DNA from: a virus
Reading direction: 5' to 3' (one strand)
IMG/VR virus record: IMGVR_UViG_3300020463_000141
Coordinates: 1 to 23,292 of that record
Length of the DNA stretch: 23,292 bases
Under the pieces are notes generated by a model, which saw nothing but the letters and a program-made list of their open reading frames with translations, was not told the DNA's origin and searched no databases. Positions 3,845 to 23,292 of the stretch are shown piece by piece. Within the stretch, counting starts at the first letter, position 1, and the number at the start of each line of letters is the position of its first letter. Position numbers and translations under genes: made by a program.

Positions 3845-4180
3845 ATGAAATGGTTTGATATTACAGATCCAGCAAAAGGACAAATGGAAAGATTACTGGA
3901 AAAAAATCCAGGCAAATATGCAGTCAGTTTACAGGTAATAGGTGGCGGATGTGCAGGCTTCAAATACAAGTGGGATTTCATTGAAACAAAAGAAAACATT
4001 AACAAGGACGATGAATTAGTCGACTGGGGCACAGGCCGTTTTGTTGTTGATGAGGCTTCCATGATGTATATTGCTGGAACCAAGATAGACTGGGTAGAAG
4101 AAACATTTGGATCTCAGTTTGAAATTGTAAATCCAAATGCACAATCAGGTTGCGGTTGTGGAGAATCATTTGGCGTATAA
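3845..4180 (+). CDS. A-type Fe-S cluster carrier (IscA/ErpA/HesB family)
   Basis: The protein has 111 residues, the usual family length. It has GGGCAGFKYKWDF (33-45) and a C-terminal SGCGCGESF (101-109), giving the three conserved cysteines C36, C103 and C105. A-type carriers accept Fe-S clusters from the scaffold and pass them to apo-enzymes. In a phage this is best read as an auxiliary gene supporting Fe-S enzymes during infection. The variable segment between (FIETKENINKDDELVDWGTG) is longer and more acidic than in typical bacterial proteins. It starts eight bases after the preceding stop, with no clear Shine-Dalgarno sequence (TAGT directly before ATG), and the next gene begins immediately after its stop. 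Confidence 0.93.
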   Translation: MKWFDITDPAKGQMERLLEKNPGKYAVSLQVIGGGCAGFKYKWDFIETKENINKDDELVDWGTGRFVVDEASMMYIAGTKIDWVEETFGSQFEIVNPNAQSGCGCGESFGV

Positions 4181-6210: not shown

Positions 6211-9200
6211 ATGGCACAGCAGATTATTGACACAGGCTCCATAGGTGATGACGGTACAGGTGATACTATCAGACTTGCTGGAGTTAAAATAAATGCAAAC
6301 TTTGATGAATTGTTTGCACTTGATGTTGTCAAATCGGACATTAGATTTTCTCAAAACGAAATAATAACACAATCTTCAAACGCAGACATCGTGCTACAAG
6401 CGGCAGGTGTTGGAACAATAAACTTTGGTGATGGTATTGTTATTAATGACAACAATATTCAAACAGCAAGATCAAATGAAAATTTAGGTATTGTTCCTAG
6501 TGGAACAGGACAGGTTATAATTGCTGGTTTAGGATTTACAAGTGGTACAACAATATCTGCTACTGACTCGTCAACAATCAATATCAATGAAAGATTACAA
6601 TTAGACGGAACGTTAACAGCCTCGAGTGCAATTACTTTTGATCAGGGTGTAACTTTAGAAAGCACATTAGACGTAACAGGTCATACCACATTGTCCACTT
6701 TGACTGTTTCAAGTAATTCCAGTTTTGCTGGCACAACAACAATTGACAATGTTACTTTCAATGATAACATTATCGGAACATCATCAAATGCTGATTTACA
6801 ATTAACACCAGGTGGTACTGGTGTTGTAAATGTTTCGAACATGACAATTGATTCGAGCATAAATTTAACCGATAACATATTAAAAGTAACAAGATCAGAC
6901 GATAATTTACAATTAACAGGAAGTGGTTCAGGAACAGTTGAGATAATATCAGGATTGACAACTGCGGCAGTCACAACCACTGGCAATGTTGATATCACAG
7001 GAACAAAAACAATTGACGGTCAGTTGGACGTTGAAGGAATTCAAATTAAAGATAATAAAATTTCAACAGATGAATCAAATTCTAACCTATTAATTTCAGG
7101 CAATACAAGTGGCAATGTAAAAATAGATGATGTTGATATCGGCGGTGGTACTGTAGATAATATTGCCATTGGAGCAACAACTCCTGCGGCAGGAACATTT
7201 TCAACCATAACTTTTGATCCGGTATCAAGTGCAACTTTGTCAACAACTGGAACAACAATTACCGATAACAAAATAACAGCAACAGAATCAAACGCAAATT
7301 TAGTGCTACAAGCAAACGGATCAGGATATGTAGAATTTAATGGTTTAAAAATGCCAAATTCAGATGGTGGTACTGGACAATTTTTAAGAACAGATGGATC
7401 AGGAAATATTTCTTGGGCAACAGTTCCTATTGCATTAGGTGTAACTGCAATTCAAGATGCAAGAGCAACAATTGGATTTGCATCAATTACTGAAATATCT
7501 GCAAACACGGCGGCTGGTGGACACGAGTCAATTGGTGTAACAACGAGTGTCGTGGACGAATTTGATCAAACAAAGTATGATAGTGCATGGTATTTGATTT
7601 TGCAAAGACATCTAAGTTCAGATAGCACAGTTGAATTTGCAGGAATGAAAACAACCATTGCACAAGGAACAGAAGACGGAAGCACTTTTGATGCATTTGA
7701 TGGTACTGGTCAAATTGTAAGAACACACACAGGCGATACAGTAATACAAACAAATTCAGATATTAGAAGTGCTGTCGGTAAGGTGAGATTTTTAGCAACT
7801 GGACCGGTTCTTCCAGATGGTTCATCTATTGCTCCGGAGACAGCATTAAGTTTTTACAGAATTGGTTTGGGAGATAATGACTCTTCAGGATGGAGTGACA
7901 ACAAGGCAAGTACGATTGTGGTTGCTGACTTAGATTCCGCAGAAGCAACATTGGACAGTTGGGCCAAAGGATCATATAGAGGTGCAAAATATTATATTTC
8001 AATTAATAACACAACAACAAACGAAGTACAAAACGTAGAAGTTATTCTTGTCCACAATGGGACTGATGCTTTTGTGCAAGAATACAACAGTTTTACAACC
8101 AATTCAGCAAACACATCTCTGGCAACATTTGCCGCAGACATAAGCGGAAGTGATGTTAGACTACGAGGTGCCAACGGAACCGCAGGCACGTGTAGAGTAA
8201 CAATGTACAGGATACTTTTGTCAGATAGCGAATCAGACACAACAATCAACAGTTATGAAAAGGTCATTGGTGCACAAACAGTCAGCAACACAGCATCAAC
8301 AACAATAGACACAAACTCTTTCAGAGGCGATGTAAATCCAGACATGAGCACACAAAAGGTGATCAACACCGTTGCTCAATCCGATTACGACAGTGTGTTC
8401 TATCACATGATACAGAAAGACATTACAAACAGCGAATTCAAAGCAAACAAATTATCAGTGCACCACGGTATCCTAACTGATGGAAGCACCCGAGATGCTT
8501 TTGTATCTGACTCACACGTTTTAAAATCAGGTGAAATGAATGACATCACAACTTTTGAGGTTGGCGTAAATGGATCAAACATAGAATTAAAAGCAACTGG
8601 TGTCAGTGACGGCTCTACAACAATACAAAATGCAATTTCATACTACGCAGTGGGCCTAGGAGATAACACTCCAACGAACACCACTGGAAAAATTGGAACA
8701 CACGCAGGAGTCACGTTTGGTGGGGCCAATGAAACAAGGGTTGACACTATTACAGCGACAGGAACTTGCACATCAATTCTAAACACACAAAGAACACTTG
8801 CGGATTTTGACAAGACGGCTTATGATAGTGCGTGGTTCATGGGTGTTTCAAACGATATTGAAAACTCAGGACTGGCCACTTTCAAATATTCAGTGATGCA
8901 TGGAACAACAAGCGACGGCAGTACTCAAGACGCATTCATAACATCATCATCAATCACAAGAACGGATATAAGTCACAATCACCTAGAAACAGATGTTGAT
9001 ATAAGCGGCAGTGATGTAAGACTGTTGGGTAATGGTGGAAGACTTGATGATTCTTCAAAATCAAATTCAAATACTATCGCATATTACAGAATTGGTTTGG
9101 GTGATAACGACTCTTCTGGTTATACAAGTGACGACGGCAATGCTGACACCGATGTTGTTACTGTTGGTGGTATTCAAGAAACAAATATTGACCGTGTGAC

Positions 9201-12132
9201 GGCAAGTGGAACTCATGCCACACTATCAGCATCAGGTTCAACAACCTGTGCAGAATTCACAGCAGGACAATATGACGGAGCATTATTCTATGTTTTAAGT
9301 CATGATGTGGCAAATGGTAGTTTTGAAACAATGAAAATATCCATGGCTCACAACCTAAGCGATTCATTCCAATCACAATCATCTATTGTTAAAACTGATG
9401 AAGGTGATACACACCCTGCATACACAACGGACATAGTTACGTCCGACGATAGTACAAGCAAAGTAAGATTAATATCAACTGACGCAGACGGTAGTACCGT
9501 GGCCAACAACAACACAATGGCTTACTACAGAATAGGTTTGGGAGATGATGATTCAACTGGACACATTGGTGAGTTAGGTTTGGTCACTGATATCATGCAC
9601 GTGGACATCATAGACAGCACAACAACCACACTTGATCAAATTGCTCATGGTCCACATTGTGGTGCAAAATATTTTATAACTGTAAACAATCAGTCAACAG
9701 GTGAAACGGGCAACATAGAAGCATTATTGACACACGACGGTACCAACGCATACATCACAACGTACAACGAAATTTTTACAGGCAATAATAGCCTTATAAC
9801 TTTGACTGCAGACATCAGTGGTTCATCTTTTAGATTGAGAGGTTCAGCAACAGCAGGCAGTAGCACAAAAGTCATAGTCAACAGGGTAGTTGCATTTGGA
9901 GACTCAGAGTCAACAGAAACCAATGCTGACAGCACAAGAAAAATAATTGGAAACACCATTGTGAGTAGTACGGCAACGGCATTTGATACATTCATGTCCA
10001 GCGAAACTGATGCGGCGCACTATGTGATCACTGGACAAAAAGGTTCGGATGAAAATTTCATATGTGAAGCGGTTGTCATAACCGATGGTACAACTGCATA
10101 CGTATCACAAGGACCTAATGTAAGTTCTAAAAGTACAGATATGTTGGAAATTACTGCGGCAATATCAAGTGGAGTGGTCACTGTTAGTGCAAGTTCTACT
10201 TCTGGATCATCAACTGTACAGGCCTATGCGATAAAATTAAAAGCACCTGAAAGTTCTACAGCAACAATTGATAGTTTTGCGGCAAGTTCATTCAGAGGAG
10301 CGAAATACTTTATATCTCTGAACAACCTAACCAGCAACGAGGTAAGCAACATCGAAGCACTAGTGGTGCATGATGGAACCAACGTTTTTATAAATTCATA
10401 CAACGAACACCACAGTGGCAGTGCAAGTTTGATCAACGGACAACTAACTGCAGACATCAGTGGTGGCAATGTAAGATTGAGATGTGTGGTAGCACAGGAC
10501 AATACAAGAATTACTTTCTATAAAATAATTTTAGCAGATGCTGAAACCGATATAACTGGCGGAACCAACGTAAATGTAATTGGTGATGTAACAGTATCAA
10601 GTACGGCAACGGCGATAGACACCTATGTGGACACAGACATAGATGGTGCCCATTATGTAATCATTGGATACAATTCCACTGAAGGAGCGGCATCAATACA
10701 AGAGGCCAATGTCATAACAAATGGCACAACTGCTTTTGTTTCTTCTGGTCCTTTTGTAAGCACCAAAGGTACAAACCAATTGGATCTCACAGCGGCACAT
10801 GACGGTTCTTCAACTGTAACATTATCAGCGGCATCTACTTCAGGTGGTTCAACCAAAGTAAACGCATACAGAATTCACATGAAGGCTCCTACTGGACAAA
10901 CAGATAATTTAGATACTTGGGCAAAAGGAACATACCGAGGAGCAAAATATTATATTTCTGCAAAAGAAACTGTAACTGGTTACACTAGCAATATAGAATG
11001 TTTAGTTGTCCATGATGGAACAACTGCTTATATAAATGATTTTAATGAACATTTTTCACACGTATCTTTGGTTACTTTAACAGTAGACATTAGTGGAGGT
11101 AATGTTAGATTGAGATGTGCGGGTAACATACCCGACGTCAAAGTTAAATTCTACAGAATACGATTGGCAGACAGTGAATCCAGTGCCGAAACGACCGACA
11201 CTAAACTGATTGACACAGTAACAGTATCAAGTTCTGCCACAGCAATAGATACTTTTATAGATTCAACTTATACAGGTGCTCATTATGTTGTTATAGGATA
11301 TAATGCCAGTGAAGGCACAGCAGAAATACAAGAAGCAAATGTTTTAACAAACGGTACAACTGCTTTCTTGTCTCACGCAAACCATGTTTCAAGTAAATCA
11401 ACACCGATGCTTGTACTGTCAGCGGCTCATGATGGATCAAACACAGTTACTATTAGTGCGGCATCAACTGCAGGCGGTAGCACAACTGTTAATGCATACA
11501 GAATACATATGTTACGTGGTGATGCTTTCCAATACGACGTGCTAGATAGTATTGGATACGCAGGATACCCTTTGGCAAACTATATCGTTGTAGGAAAAAA
11601 TGCGGCCAACGAATCTCAGATAGCAGAATTAATGGTTGTGTCTGACGGCACAGCACCATATATCTTGAAAGACGGTGCAAACATCAGCACACATTCAACA
11701 TCCACAATGTTGATGGATTTTACGGTTGGACACAACGGCAGTAACGTTGAATTACGTGCAGAAAATACTCAACAAAACACAGACACCACGGTCAACGCAT
11801 ACAGGATAGCCTTATCAAGGACGGCAGGTAATCCAAGTTCTATTGCAACTTTAGACAGTTGGTCTGCCAGCACATACAGAGGTGCAAAATACACAGTTTC
11901 AATTAGTGATTCGGGCAGTGGTGCTCTTGGTTTATACGAAACACTAGATGTAAATCTTACACACGACGGTTCGACAGTTTATATTTCAACCTTTGGTAGG
12001 GTTACAAATCATACCGGAGACATGGTCACGTTTTCTGCTGATATTGACAGTGGAAATGTTAGACTCAGAGCAACGATAAGTAATACTAATACACACACAG
12101 TTACAGTGGTACGAAAGGTTATGGACGCATAA
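6211..12132 (+). CDS. Giant modular tail-fibre-like protein, 1973 residues
   Basis: It opens with the shared module (MAQQ, GTGDTIR, KINANFDELF). Residues to about 410 are beta-rich repeats (TDN-x-I-x-T-x-x-SN-x-NL-x-L-x-x-x-GSG-x-V-x-I), closing with GGTGQFLRTDGSGNISW, a motif common in phage fibres. From about 415 to the end is an array of roughly twelve modules of about 100 residues, in at least three related types. The B type has LDSWA-x-G-x-YRGAKYYIS, then LVHDGT-x-A-x-I, then TADISGGNVRLR. The final module ends exactly at the C-terminus. The first 400 residues align end to end with the next gene. No protease or enzymatic motif is recognised, so a host-binding or spacer fibre is inferred. 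GGAG at 6201-6204 precedes the ATG; the stop overlaps the next start (TAATG). Confidence 0.88.
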   Translation: MAQQIIDTGSIGDDGTGDTIRLAGVKINANFDELFALDVVKSDIRFSQNEIITQSSNADIVLQAAGVGTINFGDGIVINDNNIQTARSNENLGIVPSGTGQVIIAGLGFTSGTTISATDSSTININERLQLDGTLTASSAITFDQGVTLESTLDVTGHTTLSTLTVSSNSSFAGTTTIDNVTFNDNIIGTSSNADLQLTPGGTGVVNVSNMTIDSSINLTDNILKVTRSDDNLQLTGSGSGTVEIISGLTTAAVTTTGNVDITGTKTIDGQLDVEGIQIKDNKISTDESNSNLLISGNTSGNVKIDDVDIGGGTVDNIAIGATTPAAGTFSTITFDPVSSATLSTTGTTITDNKITATESNANLVLQANGSGYVEFNGLKMPNSDGGTGQFLRTDGSGNISWATVPIALGVTAIQDARATIGFASITEISANTAAGGHESIGVTTSVVDEFDQTKYDSAWYLILQRHLSSDSTVEFAGMKTTIAQGTEDGSTFDAFDGTGQIVRTHTGDTVIQTNSDIRSAVGKVRFLATGPVLPDGSSIAPETALSFYRIGLGDNDSSGWSDNKASTIVVADLDSAEATLDSWAKGSYRGAKYYISINNTTTNEVQNVEVILVHNGTDAFVQEYNSFTTNSANTSLATFAADISGSDVRLRGANGTAGTCRVTMYRILLSDSESDTTINSYEKVIGAQTVSNTASTTIDTNSFRGDVNPDMSTQKVINTVAQSDYDSVFYHMIQKDITNSEFKANKLSVHHGILTDGSTRDAFVSDSHVLKSGEMNDITTFEVGVNGSNIELKATGVSDGSTTIQNAISYYAVGLGDNTPTNTTGKIGTHAGVTFGGANETRVDTITATGTCTSILNTQRTLADFDKTAYDSAWFMGVSNDIENSGLATFKYSVMHGTTSDGSTQDAFITSSSITRTDISHNHLETDVDISGSDVRLLGNGGRLDDSSKSNSNTIAYYRIGLGDNDSSGYTSDDGNADTDVVTVGGIQETNIDRVTASGTHATLSASGSTTCAEFTAGQYDGALFYVLSHDVANGSFETMKISMAHNLSDSFQSQSSIVKTDEGDTHPAYTTDIVTSDDSTSKVRLISTDADGSTVANNNTMAYYRIGLGDDDSTGHIGELGLVTDIMHVDIIDSTTTTLDQIAHGPHCGAKYFITVNNQSTGETGNIEALLTHDGTNAYITTYNEIFTGNNSLITLTADISGSSFRLRGSATAGSSTKVIVNRVVAFGDSESTETNADSTRKIIGNTIVSSTATAFDTFMSSETDAAHYVITGQKGSDENFICEAVVITDGTTAYVSQGPNVSSKSTDMLEITAAISSGVVTVSASSTSGSSTVQAYAIKLKAPESSTATIDSFAASSFRGAKYFISLNNLTSNEVSNIEALVVHDGTNVFINSYNEHHSGSASLINGQLTADISGGNVRLRCVVAQDNTRITFYKIILADAETDITGGTNVNVIGDVTVSSTATAIDTYVDTDIDGAHYVIIGYNSTEGAASIQEANVITNGTTAFVSSGPFVSTKGTNQLDLTAAHDGSSTVTLSAASTSGGSTKVNAYRIHMKAPTGQTDNLDTWAKGTYRGAKYYISAKETVTGYTSNIECLVVHDGTTAYINDFNEHFSHVSLVTLTVDISGGNVRLRCAGNIPDVKVKFYRIRLADSESSAETTDTKLIDTVTVSSSATAIDTFIDSTYTGAHYVVIGYNASEGTAEIQEANVLTNGTTAFLSHANHVSSKSTPMLVLSAAHDGSNTVTISAASTAGGSTTVNAYRIHMLRGDAFQYDVLDSIGYAGYPLANYIVVGKNAANESQIAELMVVSDGTAPYILKDGANISTHSTSTMLMDFTVGHNGSNVELRAENTQQNTDTTVNAYRIALSRTAGNPSSIATLDSWSASTYRGAKYTVSISDSGSGALGLYETLDVNLTHDGSTVYISTFGRVTNHTGDMVTFSADIDSGNVRLRATISNTNTHTVTVVRKVMDA
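6460..7425 (+). repeat. Beta-rich fibre repeats, N-terminal half of the giant fibre
   Basis: Units of about 25-30 codons recur: DNNIQTARSNENLGIV, FNDNIIGTSSNADLQL, LTDNILKVTRSDDNLQL, IKDNKISTDESNSNLLI and ITDNKITATESNANLVL, each followed by a Gly-rich GSG or GTG turn and a V-x-I strand. The same units occur in the fibre genes at 12132 and 13733 and, more loosely, at 5242. The repeats are clear in protein but diverged in DNA. Confidence 0.8.
7456..12129 (+). repeat. Array of about twelve ~100-residue protein modules
   Basis: By eye the modules run approximately: A1 7456-7920, B1 7927-8238, A2 8245-8690, A3 8740-9130, A4 9180-9600, B2 9601-9915, C1 9916-10254, B3 10255-10545, C2 10546-10905, B4 10906-11178, C3 11179-11520, C4 11521-11829 and B5 11830-12129. 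Marks are YRGAKY in B, GAHYVIIGYN in C and YYRIGLGDNDSSG in A. B and C alternate strictly from 9601 to 11520, suggesting growth by duplication of a B-C pair. A sixth B-like module ends the next gene (about 13390-13673). Boundaries are approximate. Confidence 0.8.
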
Positions 12133-19566: not shown

Positions 19567-20205
19567 ATGTCAAACAGTTTTACGTGGAAAACAAAATTCA
19601 AATCAATTATTATTGTTGATGGAGAATTGTTTTCAAATGAATATAATGTTAATGTTCATATCACTCCACACACAGCAAATCTAAAAGAGCAGACAGACTA
19701 TTTTGAAAGATTAAAAAATCTTTTTGAACAAATGTTTGCAAATACAATTACCACTTGGAGAGAGGAAAAACTTTATCACACTCTTAAAAAAGTTTCAAAC
19801 AATAGATTTATAGAATTACCAAAACCTCCTTATGACCAGATAATGGCGGCAGTTTGTTTTTGTAAAGCAAACGCAGTACTTGATTCGGTAATTACCGTCA
19901 GCAAATTAGATTTATCATCATGGCAAGGTGATGGTATTACATATTCAGTTGACAGCGACAGCAAAGAACTGTTATTATTAGACATACCAAACTGGTTCTC
20001 AGACAAATACAAAGACTTTGATCCATGGTGGTTAAGGGCAGACACGGCAACATATGATCAAGAATTTGACAAAGGCATATACACAGGACACTTCAGTTGG
20101 AACAACACAAAGAAAATATCTGTTGACAAGAAGCACGAAGATCATGCTAAAATATTCGAGTTCAACCCGAAAGTTTTAGATGGTGGCAAAAATAAAAATA
20201 AATGA
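19567..20205 (+). CDS. Phage protein of unknown function
   Basis: The protein has 212 residues from ATG 19567, preferred to the adjacent TTG at 19564. It opens with two hydrophobic strands (FKSIIIVDGELF, then NVNVHITPH), then a helical part with Phe and Tyr (LKEQTDYFERLKNLFEQMF), then VCFCKANAVLDSVITVSKLD. A Trp-rich C-terminal segment (LLLDIPNWFSDKYKDFDPWW) is followed by GIYTGHFSWNN. It is soluble with no known motif, so I cannot assign a function. Its end overlaps the next gene by 26 bases, so both are probably made together. Confidence 0.72.
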   Translation: MSNSFTWKTKFKSIIIVDGELFSNEYNVNVHITPHTANLKEQTDYFERLKNLFEQMFANTITTWREEKLYHTLKKVSNNRFIELPKPPYDQIMAAVCFCKANAVLDSVITVSKLDLSSWQGDGITYSVDSDSKELLLLDIPNWFSDKYKDFDPWWLRADTATYDQEFDKGIYTGHFSWNNTKKISVDKKHEDHAKIFEFNPKVLDGGKNKNK

Positions 20206-20701
20206 AACAGGTGATTGTATCTTTACAGAGCAAGATGCAATAGAGTTGCTATACACAGATCCATCTTTTGATATATCAAAATTATATTTTGACAACACAG
20301 AACAATACAATAATAGTGTGTCAAAAACAGCATTAAATTATTCTAAATTACAAGAACTTCCAGAGAGACCAGCAGTAGATATTTTTGATAAAAATAATAT
20401 CGAAAATTGGTATATGCCCGAACAGTATTACCAAATAGATGTTCTTGATTGGTTATTGACCAAGTGTCAAACCCAGGAAGAAAAAGATAGAGTAAATTTA
20501 GAGTACAAATTATTCGAACAAAAAAAATTTATAAAAGTTTTACAATTTTTAATATACTTCGTAGATACATTGAGAAAAAATAACATAGTATGGGGAGTAG
20601 GCAGGGGCAGTTCTGTTGCAAGTTTTTGTTTATTCTTAATTGGCATACATAAAATCAACCCACTACAATACAATTTAAATATTACTGAATTTTTACGATG
20701 A
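20180..20701 (+). CDS. DNA polymerase III alpha-like palm fragment protein
   Basis: The protein has 173 residues. From about residue 79 it follows the start of the bacterial C-family (DnaE/PolC) palm: MPEQYYQIDVLDWLL, a helix leading into FIKVLQFLIYFVDTLRKNNI (117-136), then VWGVGRGSSVASF (137-149), LIGIHKINPLQYNL (153-166) and TEFLR (169-173). The GRGSS (141-145) equals the GRGS loop that binds the incoming nucleotide phosphates in C-family polymerases, and INPLQYNL equals the family's IDPL-x-[YF]-x-L. In DnaE the next 10-15 residues carry the catalytic PD-[FI]-D-[IV]-DF. Here the gene simply stops, so it cannot polymerise alone. The first 75 residues are unlike the PHP domain. It overlaps the previous gene by 26 bases. 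Confidence 0.75.
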   Translation: MVAKIKINETGDCIFTEQDAIELLYTDPSFDISKLYFDNTEQYNNSVSKTALNYSKLQELPERPAVDIFDKNNIENWYMPEQYYQIDVLDWLLTKCQTQEEKDRVNLEYKLFEQKKFIKVLQFLIYFVDTLRKNNIVWGVGRGSSVASFCLFLIGIHKINPLQYNLNITEFLR

Positions 20702-20729
20702 TAAGTAATATAAAATAGGAGCATATAAT

Positions 20730-21122
20730 ATGGTAGCGAGACCAACAAGAAAAAGAATGTATAGATCGATGCAGGGAAGAATGATCGATATTGAAAAATT
20801 AAGAGCGGCAAATGAAGATATTAGAGCAGTTGGTAATATGAATGTAAATGCAAGGGGTGACGTTTTAGGAAAAGGCGGACAAGTTGCAACTACAAAGGCT
20901 AAAGTTATTGCAAAATATTATGAACAGCCAAAAGGTAGAGTAGACGATACACCGATGAGGGCAAGACCCACACCTGCAAGAAAAACTCCACCGGCACCAA
21001 GAGCAGTAGAAACAAAATCACAACCTATTGCACCTACACCACAAGCAAGAGCACCTAGACAGTCTAAACCTAAAGCAACACCTAAAAAAGGTATTGACGC
21101 GGCTCTTGACGGAATAGAATAA
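20730..21122 (+). CDS. Basic, Pro/Ala-rich tailed phage protein of unknown function
   Basis: The protein has 130 residues and a good Shine-Dalgarno sequence (GGAG at 20718-20721). The N-terminal half (RKRMYRSMQGRMIDIEKLRA, then NMNVNARGDVLGKGGQV) looks ordered and conserved in style. The C-terminal half is low-complexity and basic, with repeats of Pro, Ala, Arg, Lys and Thr (RARPTPARKTPPAPR, then PQARAPRQSKPKATPKK), and is probably disordered before a short acidic end (GIDAALDGIE). Disordered basic tails often bind nucleic acid or act in assembly, but no role is assigned. The -35 hexamer of the next promoter lies in its last codons. Confidence 0.75.
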   Translation: MVARPTRKRMYRSMQGRMIDIEKLRAANEDIRAVGNMNVNARGDVLGKGGQVATTKAKVIAKYYEQPKGRVDDTPMRARPTPARKTPPAPRAVETKSQPIAPTPQARAPRQSKPKATPKKGIDAALDGIE

Positions 21123-21142: not shown

Positions 21143-21610
21143 ATGGGACAAATAGAAGACTTACAAGCAAAAGGTTTTGGATCACACGGTGGTAAACAAT
21201 ACATTGTTGAAAATGATATCACCCCTTTAAAGAAAAGAGTTTTAGTATCAGATATGCACTTTGGAGAAACAAAATCCAAAGGCGGTATTATATTAGTCGA
21301 CGATGATGGTACTGCTGACGGCATTCACCCAAGATGGGGGAAAGTTTATGCAATCGGAAATCAGCAAGACGATGTTAAAGTTGGACAATGGATATTAGTT
21401 GCCCATGGTAGATGGTCAAGAGCATTTAAAATTAAAAGAAAAGAAAAAGGTTCTGCTGGTGACATAGGCGTTGAACTGGAAGTAAGAATGATTGATGAGA
21501 ATGACATACTGCTTGTATCAGACACAGAGCCAGAATTCAACAGACACAAAGCCGGGTACATCAATATGGGCGGTGCTCAACAGATGACTAAACTACCGGG
21601 AAATGACTAA
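21143..21610 (+). CDS. GroES-like co-chaperonin (T4 gp31-type role)
   Basis: The protein has 155 residues; bacterial GroES has about 97. After a phage-specific N-terminal stretch of 27 residues comes PLKKRVLVSDM (28-38), equal to the PL-x-DRV strand of GroES. ETKSKGGIILVDD (42-54) equals its mobile loop with the GGI-[VIL]-L motif that docks on GroEL. Then WGKVYAIGNQQ (65-75) and DVKVGQWILVAHGR (77-90) match the [GK]-x-V-x-A-[VI]-G and VKVGD blocks, and NDILLVSD (120-127) matches ESDILA. T4 gp31 replaces GroES so that GroEL can fold the capsid protein, and a similar job is likely. The C-terminal 28 residues (TEPEFNRHKAGYINMGGAQQ) are extra. First gene after the 21106-21134 promoter. Confidence 0.88.
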   Translation: MGQIEDLQAKGFGSHGGKQYIVENDITPLKKRVLVSDMHFGETKSKGGIILVDDDGTADGIHPRWGKVYAIGNQQDDVKVGQWILVAHGRWSRAFKIKRKEKGSAGDIGVELEVRMIDENDILLVSDTEPEFNRHKAGYINMGGAQQMTKLPGND

Positions 21611-22249: not shown

Positions 22250-23292
22250 ATGACTAAACGTATTGGATTCTGCTGTCAATGGTTTCACCATGATCAGACT
22301 ATTAAAAAGAAACAATTAGAAGAAATCCAAAGACCTTTCAACACAAAAGCAACCACAGTTCGTTGGCTTAATGAACATAAAGACGAAGCCGAAGCAAAAC
22401 TTGATATGGTTGTTAAACACAACATTGAATCAATTAAAAAACTTATTACAAAAGTCGGTACTCTTCCACCGGAACGTAGAATGTGTAGGTTAAGTTCACC
22501 AATATTACCAATGGCAACCGAAGCCACTTGGCGTTATTACATTGACTCTCCAGACATAGTACGATATTGTGAAAAACATTTTGCAGAAGTAGGCGATCTT
22601 GCTCGTAAATTGGATGTAAAAATATCTTTCCATCCTGGACAGTTCACAGTACTTGCATCTGAAACTCCAGACATTGTGGATCGTAGCATAGATGAATTTG
22701 AATATCACACCAACATGGCACGTTGGATGGGATTTGGCAAAAGTTTCCAAGATGGTTGCAAAATTAATGTACATATTTCAGGCAGACAAGGTCCTGAAGG
22801 TATTATCAAAGCACTTCCTAGACTGTCGCCAGAAGCAAGAAACTTAATTACTATTGAGAATGACGAGATGGGTTGGGGATTGGATGCAAGTTTAGAACTT
22901 GAAAAACATCTTGCACTTGTTATGGACATACATCATCATTGGATACGAGATGAAGAATACATTGAACCCAACGATGACAGAGTAAAACGTGTGATAGATT
23001 CTTGGCGTGGTGTTAGACCTACCATGCACTATTCATATTCCAGAGACGAAGCACTTGAACCTGCACAGTTGGGTGATAAGACTCATACAGAAATGCACAA
23101 TATTAGAGATTTGATAGATAAAGGTTGCAAAAAGGTAAAACTTAGATCACATTCTGATCTATTACCAAATGCAAAAGTAAATGACTGGGCATTATCCTTC
23201 AATGAACAGTTTGACATACAGGTAGAAGCAAAAGCAAAAAATCTTGCCGCTGAACAATTATATACACAACATCTTGAAAACACCACAATATA
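22250..23292 (+). CDS. uvsE: UV damage endonuclease (UvdE/UvsE family), 3' end cut by the window
   Basis: The frame is open for 347 codons to the edge; the last two bases (TA) could begin a stop or a tyrosine. UvdE enzymes are TIM barrels with metal ions that nick DNA 5' of UV photoproducts. Matching landmarks are CRLSSPILP (79-87), SFHPGQFTVL (126-135), NVHISG (173-178), TIENDE (201-206), MDIHHH (225-230), MHYS (259-262), SHSD (300-303) and VEAKAK (325-330). Probable metal ligands by analogy with known UvdE are H128, H175, E203, D226, H228, H260, H301 and E326. The length is near the family's usual 300-350, so little is likely to be missing. It has its own promoter, which suggests early expression for repair of phage DNA in sunlit water. 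Confidence 0.92.
   Translation, partial: MTKRIGFCCQWFHHDQTIKKKQLEEIQRPFNTKATTVRWLNEHKDEAEAKLDMVVKHNIESIKKLITKVGTLPPERRMCRLSSPILPMATEATWRYYIDSPDIVRYCEKHFAEVGDLARKLDVKISFHPGQFTVLASETPDIVDRSIDEFEYHTNMARWMGFGKSFQDGCKINVHISGRQGPEGIIKALPRLSPEARNLITIENDEMGWGLDASLELEKHLALVMDIHHHWIRDEEYIEPNDDRVKRVIDSWRGVRPTMHYSYSRDEALEPAQLGDKTHTEMHNIRDLIDKGCKKVKLRSHSDLLPNAKVNDWALSFNEQFDIQVEAKAKNLAAEQLYTQHLENTTI

Follow-up and report, generated by a model that had tools for sequence, protein, structure and literature searches.

A split, minimal alpha subunit of polymerase III (Pol III alpha) has been described for the group 2.2 jumbo phages by Iyer et al. 2021 (PMC7824862). In that system, a short phage protein corresponds to the portion of Pol III alpha that binds NTPs, the portion that binds Mg2+ and the template is encoded by a separate and distant gene, and the genome also carries a family B polymerase. 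Since the split enzyme is already set out there, the core of the explanation given below has been published, as a prediction. With the bacterial Pol III alpha (DnaE) the two phage proteins, here called the N half and the C half, have in common the phosphate loop, the PDxDxDF strand, the third aspartate in a KxD motif and the KSHxxxY motif. DnaE differs in being a single polypeptide of about 1160 aa that has complete fingers as well as PHP, beta-binding and OB domains, whereas the phage has two chains of about 370 aa together. The compact single-chain DnaE-like polymerases of phages (about 575 aa) are also C-family enzymes without a PHP domain and combine the segments of both halves within a single protein, but their fingers are more complete than those of the split pair. 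In the PHROG library, family 11127 corresponds to the N half over nearly its full length and family 11778 to the C half; both are annotated 'DNA polymerase', but they are not linked as halves of one enzyme. The short gene was noted as a truncated alpha subunit by the authors of the CBB study and goes unmentioned in the MIJ3 paper. The literature searched contained no experiment on either of the halves.

The N half analysed here is a member of this known split polymerase family, in a marine phage lineage. It was found in positions 1 to 23,292 of the viral record IMGVR_UViG_3300020463_000141 (IMG/VR), a fragment of 23,292 nucleotides which is referred to as the window (Table 1). The list of open reading frames of the window contains the gene as an intact frame of 173 aa. 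The Pfam family DNA_pol3_alpha (PF07733) matched residues 94-172 with an E value of 1.4e-12, which exceeds the curated cut-off, and PHROG 11127 (171 positions) matched residues 6-173 on positions 8-171 of the profile, that is up to its last position, with 8.9e-47. Several NCBIfam DnaE models also ended at residue 172. The PDB match of the N half was weak when only the single sequence was used (E 0.043) and was better with a profile (0.003). The Pfam, PHROG and NCBIfam matches agree with the initial annotation, which had the frame stopping right before the PD-x-D-x-DF strand. It had also proposed that residues 117-173 follow the C-family palm; the homology was confirmed and includes GRGSS, but it starts nearer to residue 94 than to 117. 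The residues G141, R142, G143, S144 and S145 of the phosphate loop were invariant in 66 N-half sequences. The catalytic PDxDxDF strand and the third aspartate of a complete C-family polymerase are not in the N-half chain. A D-x-D-x-D[FVYL] strand was absent downstream of the gene, as had been stated before, and in every frame of the window. The Shine-Dalgarno sequence that had been assigned to the next gene was found as AGGAG ahead of the ATG at 20730.

Table 1. Features of the N-half locus in the window
Feature	Position	Strand	Details
Upstream ORF, 213 aa	19564-20205	+	Shares 26 bases with the beginning of the N-half gene
N-terminal half of split Pol III alpha (PHROG 11127)	20180-20701	+	173 aa; stop TGA 20699-20701
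Segment homologous to E. coli DnaE about 320-392 (palm helices and phosphate loop)	20459-20695	+	Residues 94-172; PF07733, profile alignment
GRGSS phosphate loop	20600-20614	+	Residues 141-145
Conserved end E-F-L-R-stop, split point	20687-20701	+	End-point comparison, 80 relatives
AGGAG, ribosome-binding site of the next gene	20717-20721	+	Sequence
Small protein with VDxDxL...NE...VNARGD motif, PHROG 14844 (unknown function)	20730-21122	+	Profile match, locus survey
Cpn10/GroES-like co-chaperonin	21143-21610	+	PF00166, 7.9e-7

The end point of the N half was then compared among relatives from viral contigs. In 75 of the 80 relatives, the stop codon follows exactly 35 residues past the initial G of GxGRGS, and in the other five it comes 1-4 residues later; none of those compared runs on into the catalytic strand. 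The same short gene is present in the jumbo phages 121Q, MIJ3, Atu_ph07, Phosso, SCTP-2 and Vibrio phage 2.275.O. The gene is under purifying selection, with a dN/dS of about 0.13-0.18 against seven relatives. The earlier view of an intact short gene was thus borne out by the frame, the selection (dN/dS about 0.15) and the shared end.

The catalytic part was found as a separate gene in the long relatives. When the longer genomes were searched with the Pfam fingers family, only weak matches were obtained, in ORFs of about 200 aa that start at or near PDVDIDF or TDIDIDF. This C half of about 190 aa matches PHROG 11778 and shows the motifs DxDIDF, KxD, RPxK and FKKSH or FKKPH. A script located the strand in 73 loci; in 62 of these the C half starts two residues before DxDxDF, with M-PD[VI]DIDF in most, and in nearly all of the others it starts a few residues earlier. 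Its residues D3, D5, D7, K66 and D68 were invariant in 49 diverse sequences and correspond in the profile alignment to D401, D403, D405, K553 and D555 of E. coli DnaE; the D-x-D-x-D series is kept even in the divergent C half of the Alishewanella phage Slicko01. When aligned to E. coli DnaE, the profile of the N half reaches as far as L392, and that of the C half begins at M399 and continues collinearly over 595-641 and 753-767, so that only the six residues NPERVS separate the halves. The spacing from RPxK to FKKSH is 26 residues in the C half against 114 between the corresponding motifs of E. coli. About 90 fingers residues are missing from the C half, including LRRAMGKK (708-715) with the arginines 709-710, and with this loss an ordinary polymerase activity is not assured. 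One C-half copy (L068:5001-5558) had an in-frame stop within an otherwise intact frame, which may reflect a sequencing error or decay.

Two other sources of the catalytic strand were considered. The VDxD strand of the gene next to the N half was dropped as a donor in trans because the real PDVDIDF C half was found, and the copy in the window reads IDIE. As to a split by an intron or intein, no Rfam match was obtained in the window, the halves are in separate neighbourhoods and the C half begins directly with M-PDVDIDF.

AlphaFold2 predicted the N half with a mean pLDDT of 90.9 as nearly all helical with the phosphate loop, and the C half with 86.9 as carrying the beta strands. The top PDB matches of both models in Foldseek were Pol III alpha (E 6e-4 to 0.2), with a modest TM by query of 0.35-0.50. 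With the strands in the C half, the N half by itself would make up only part of a palm. The term 'palm' used for it before was too generous for a model of almost only helices plus the phosphate loop, the beta-sheet being predicted in the partner.

The occurrence of the two halves was examined in the longer records. One copy of each was present in nine of nine named phages, including the circular 141-kb genome of Slicko01, and in six long viral contigs (G004, G006, G008, G009, G011 and G013); in G004, a marine contig of 196 kb, the N half is 69% identical to that of the window. In the coliphage 121Q, the N and C halves are gp56 and gp16. The contigs G001, G002, G012, G014 and G015 have an N half without a C half, but they also lack the gp41 helicase, the neighbour of the C half, and are therefore fragments in this region. 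G007, the sole contig with only a C half, is likewise missing gp44, which elsewhere lies beside the N half. The exception is G010, which has the N half and no C half although gp41 is present, 3.9 kb from the contig end. All long relatives whose sequence spans the region concerned have the C half. It is absent from the window, which as a 23-kb fragment led the initial annotation to miss it and to see a lone C-family fragment without an obvious role; for the genome of the window itself, a C half is predicted from the relatives. A family B DNA polymerase, which had been expected for T4-like phages, was detected in 20 of the 21 longer records tested and is likewise absent from the window. A DnaQ-type exonuclease as an obligate partner was unsupported, since only 6 of 15 genomes have one.

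Atu_ph07, where both halves were found here, belongs to group 2.2 of Iyer et al. (PMC7824862), whereas the marine contigs and the 141-kb phage lie outside that jumbo set. With the pair in this phage and in many marine contigs, the split enzyme is not confined to jumbo phages. The single-chain polymerase of about 575 aa was also encountered (L202:1477-3201 and L204:1432-3180), and in G016-G019 it follows the gp41 (DnaB) helicase. Three apparent N-half matches near C halves were actually this different polymerase. At least one phage contig, G009, combines three polymerases: the split pair, a single-chain C-family polymerase and a family B polymerase.

The neighbourhood of the N half was surveyed at 80 loci with 2.5 kb or more of downstream sequence. 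The VNARGD protein was found downstream in all 80, the Cpn10-like gene in 79 and the gp44 clamp loader in 71; the VNARGD protein is a candidate for a third subunit of the split polymerase or for a factor in its assembly. A Toprim primase and a DnaB helicase follow the C half in 53 of 53 loci, and UvsW lies upstream of it in 39 of 47. Both halves are thus in T4-like replisome neighbourhoods, which argues for a role in replication or repair. In the passages of Iyer et al. (PMC7824862) considered here, no link of either half to replisome genes is mentioned.

Other genes of the window were inspected as well. The ORF upstream of the N half had no family match in Pfam or PHROG. A partial UV-damage endonuclease UvdE (22250-23292; PF03851, 1e-37) is a repair gene close to the N half. 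A repetitive fibre-like protein of 1973 aa (6211-12132) had no Pfam match and shares a similar N-terminal motif, MAQQ...GTGDTLR-like, with adjoining ORFs, one of which matches a baseplate wedge PHROG with its first residues. A QueD-like 6-pyruvoyl tetrahydropterin synthase (1271-1723) and a HesB-like protein of Fe-S cluster biosynthesis (3845-4180) are probable auxiliary metabolic genes. A search of the window for the T4-like late promoter TATAAATA gave no match.

The homology of both halves, the split point, the conservation of the catalytic residues, the co-occurrence, the purifying selection on the N half and the linkage to the replisome are all features of the sequences. From these we infer the physical assembly of the halves, their catalysis and their role beside gp43. 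In the most likely case, the two halves come together as one nucleotidyltransferase for replication or repair, and we consider it probable that they make up a two-piece minimal C-family polymerase. The N half would supply the binding of the nucleotide phosphates, and the C half, from PDVDIDF on, would bring the catalytic aspartates together with the beta-sheet of the palm and what is left of the fingers. The two chains should associate and thereby restore the active site of Pol III alpha, which is pol-beta-like, in an enzyme without PHP, beta-binding or OB domains that would work in replication or repair beside the family B replicase gp43.

Several other explanations were weighed. The N half ends abruptly relative to DnaE, as would a truncated or frameshifted polymerase pseudogene, but the end common to 80 relatives, the dN/dS of about 0.15 and the frame checks, in which no frame contained the catalytic strand, rule this out for practical purposes. 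That the N half is a virion structural protein re-using the fold, as had been suggested, is hardly credible: tail fibre-like and baseplate-like proteins are among its neighbours in the window, but the published list of 55 virion proteins identified by mass spectrometry in phage CBB, the one phage to which this evidence refers, includes neither the N half (CBB_328) nor the C half (CBB_287). CBB_286, encoded next to CBB_287, is on that list. The single domain with a confident fold and an invariant GRGSS loop would also suit a nucleotide-binding protein or a decoy that acts alone and regulates the host Pol III, the idea put forward before. This is very unlikely, as the same genomes encode a partner that starts at the exact next strand and the phages bring their own replisome.

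An assembled but catalytically dead or non-polymerising pair, which would have a scaffolding or regulatory role between clamp loader and primosome in a T4-like replisome, is improbable but deserves more weight. Most of the fingers are gone, among them the LRRAMGKK arginines, and a family B replicase is already on hand. Such a scaffold would be expected to lose its aspartates; that these and K66 are invariant in the diverse C halves, and the series is retained in the divergent Slicko01 copy, counts against it. The two-piece polymerase remains the preferred explanation. In analogy to Pol alpha, the fingers-poor split enzyme might be a distinct two-chain nucleotidyltransferase at the junction of primosome and clamp loader, not a normal replicative polymerase, that for example extends primers before the hand-off to gp43; we regard this as a speculative possibility.

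New here are the exact split point, the linkage of the N half to gp44 and of the C half to the primase and helicase, and the loss of about 90 fingers residues. In large phages, the gene that is often annotated as 'DNA polymerase III alpha' or 'hypothetical' encodes half of an enzyme, whose other half often has no annotation or, as with CBB_287, is labelled a 'putative membrane protein'. The exact and conserved split point defines a minimal Pol III of about 370 aa that lends itself to testing. As the phages with the split pair already own a family B replicase, the finding raises the question of why two unrelated polymerases are kept.
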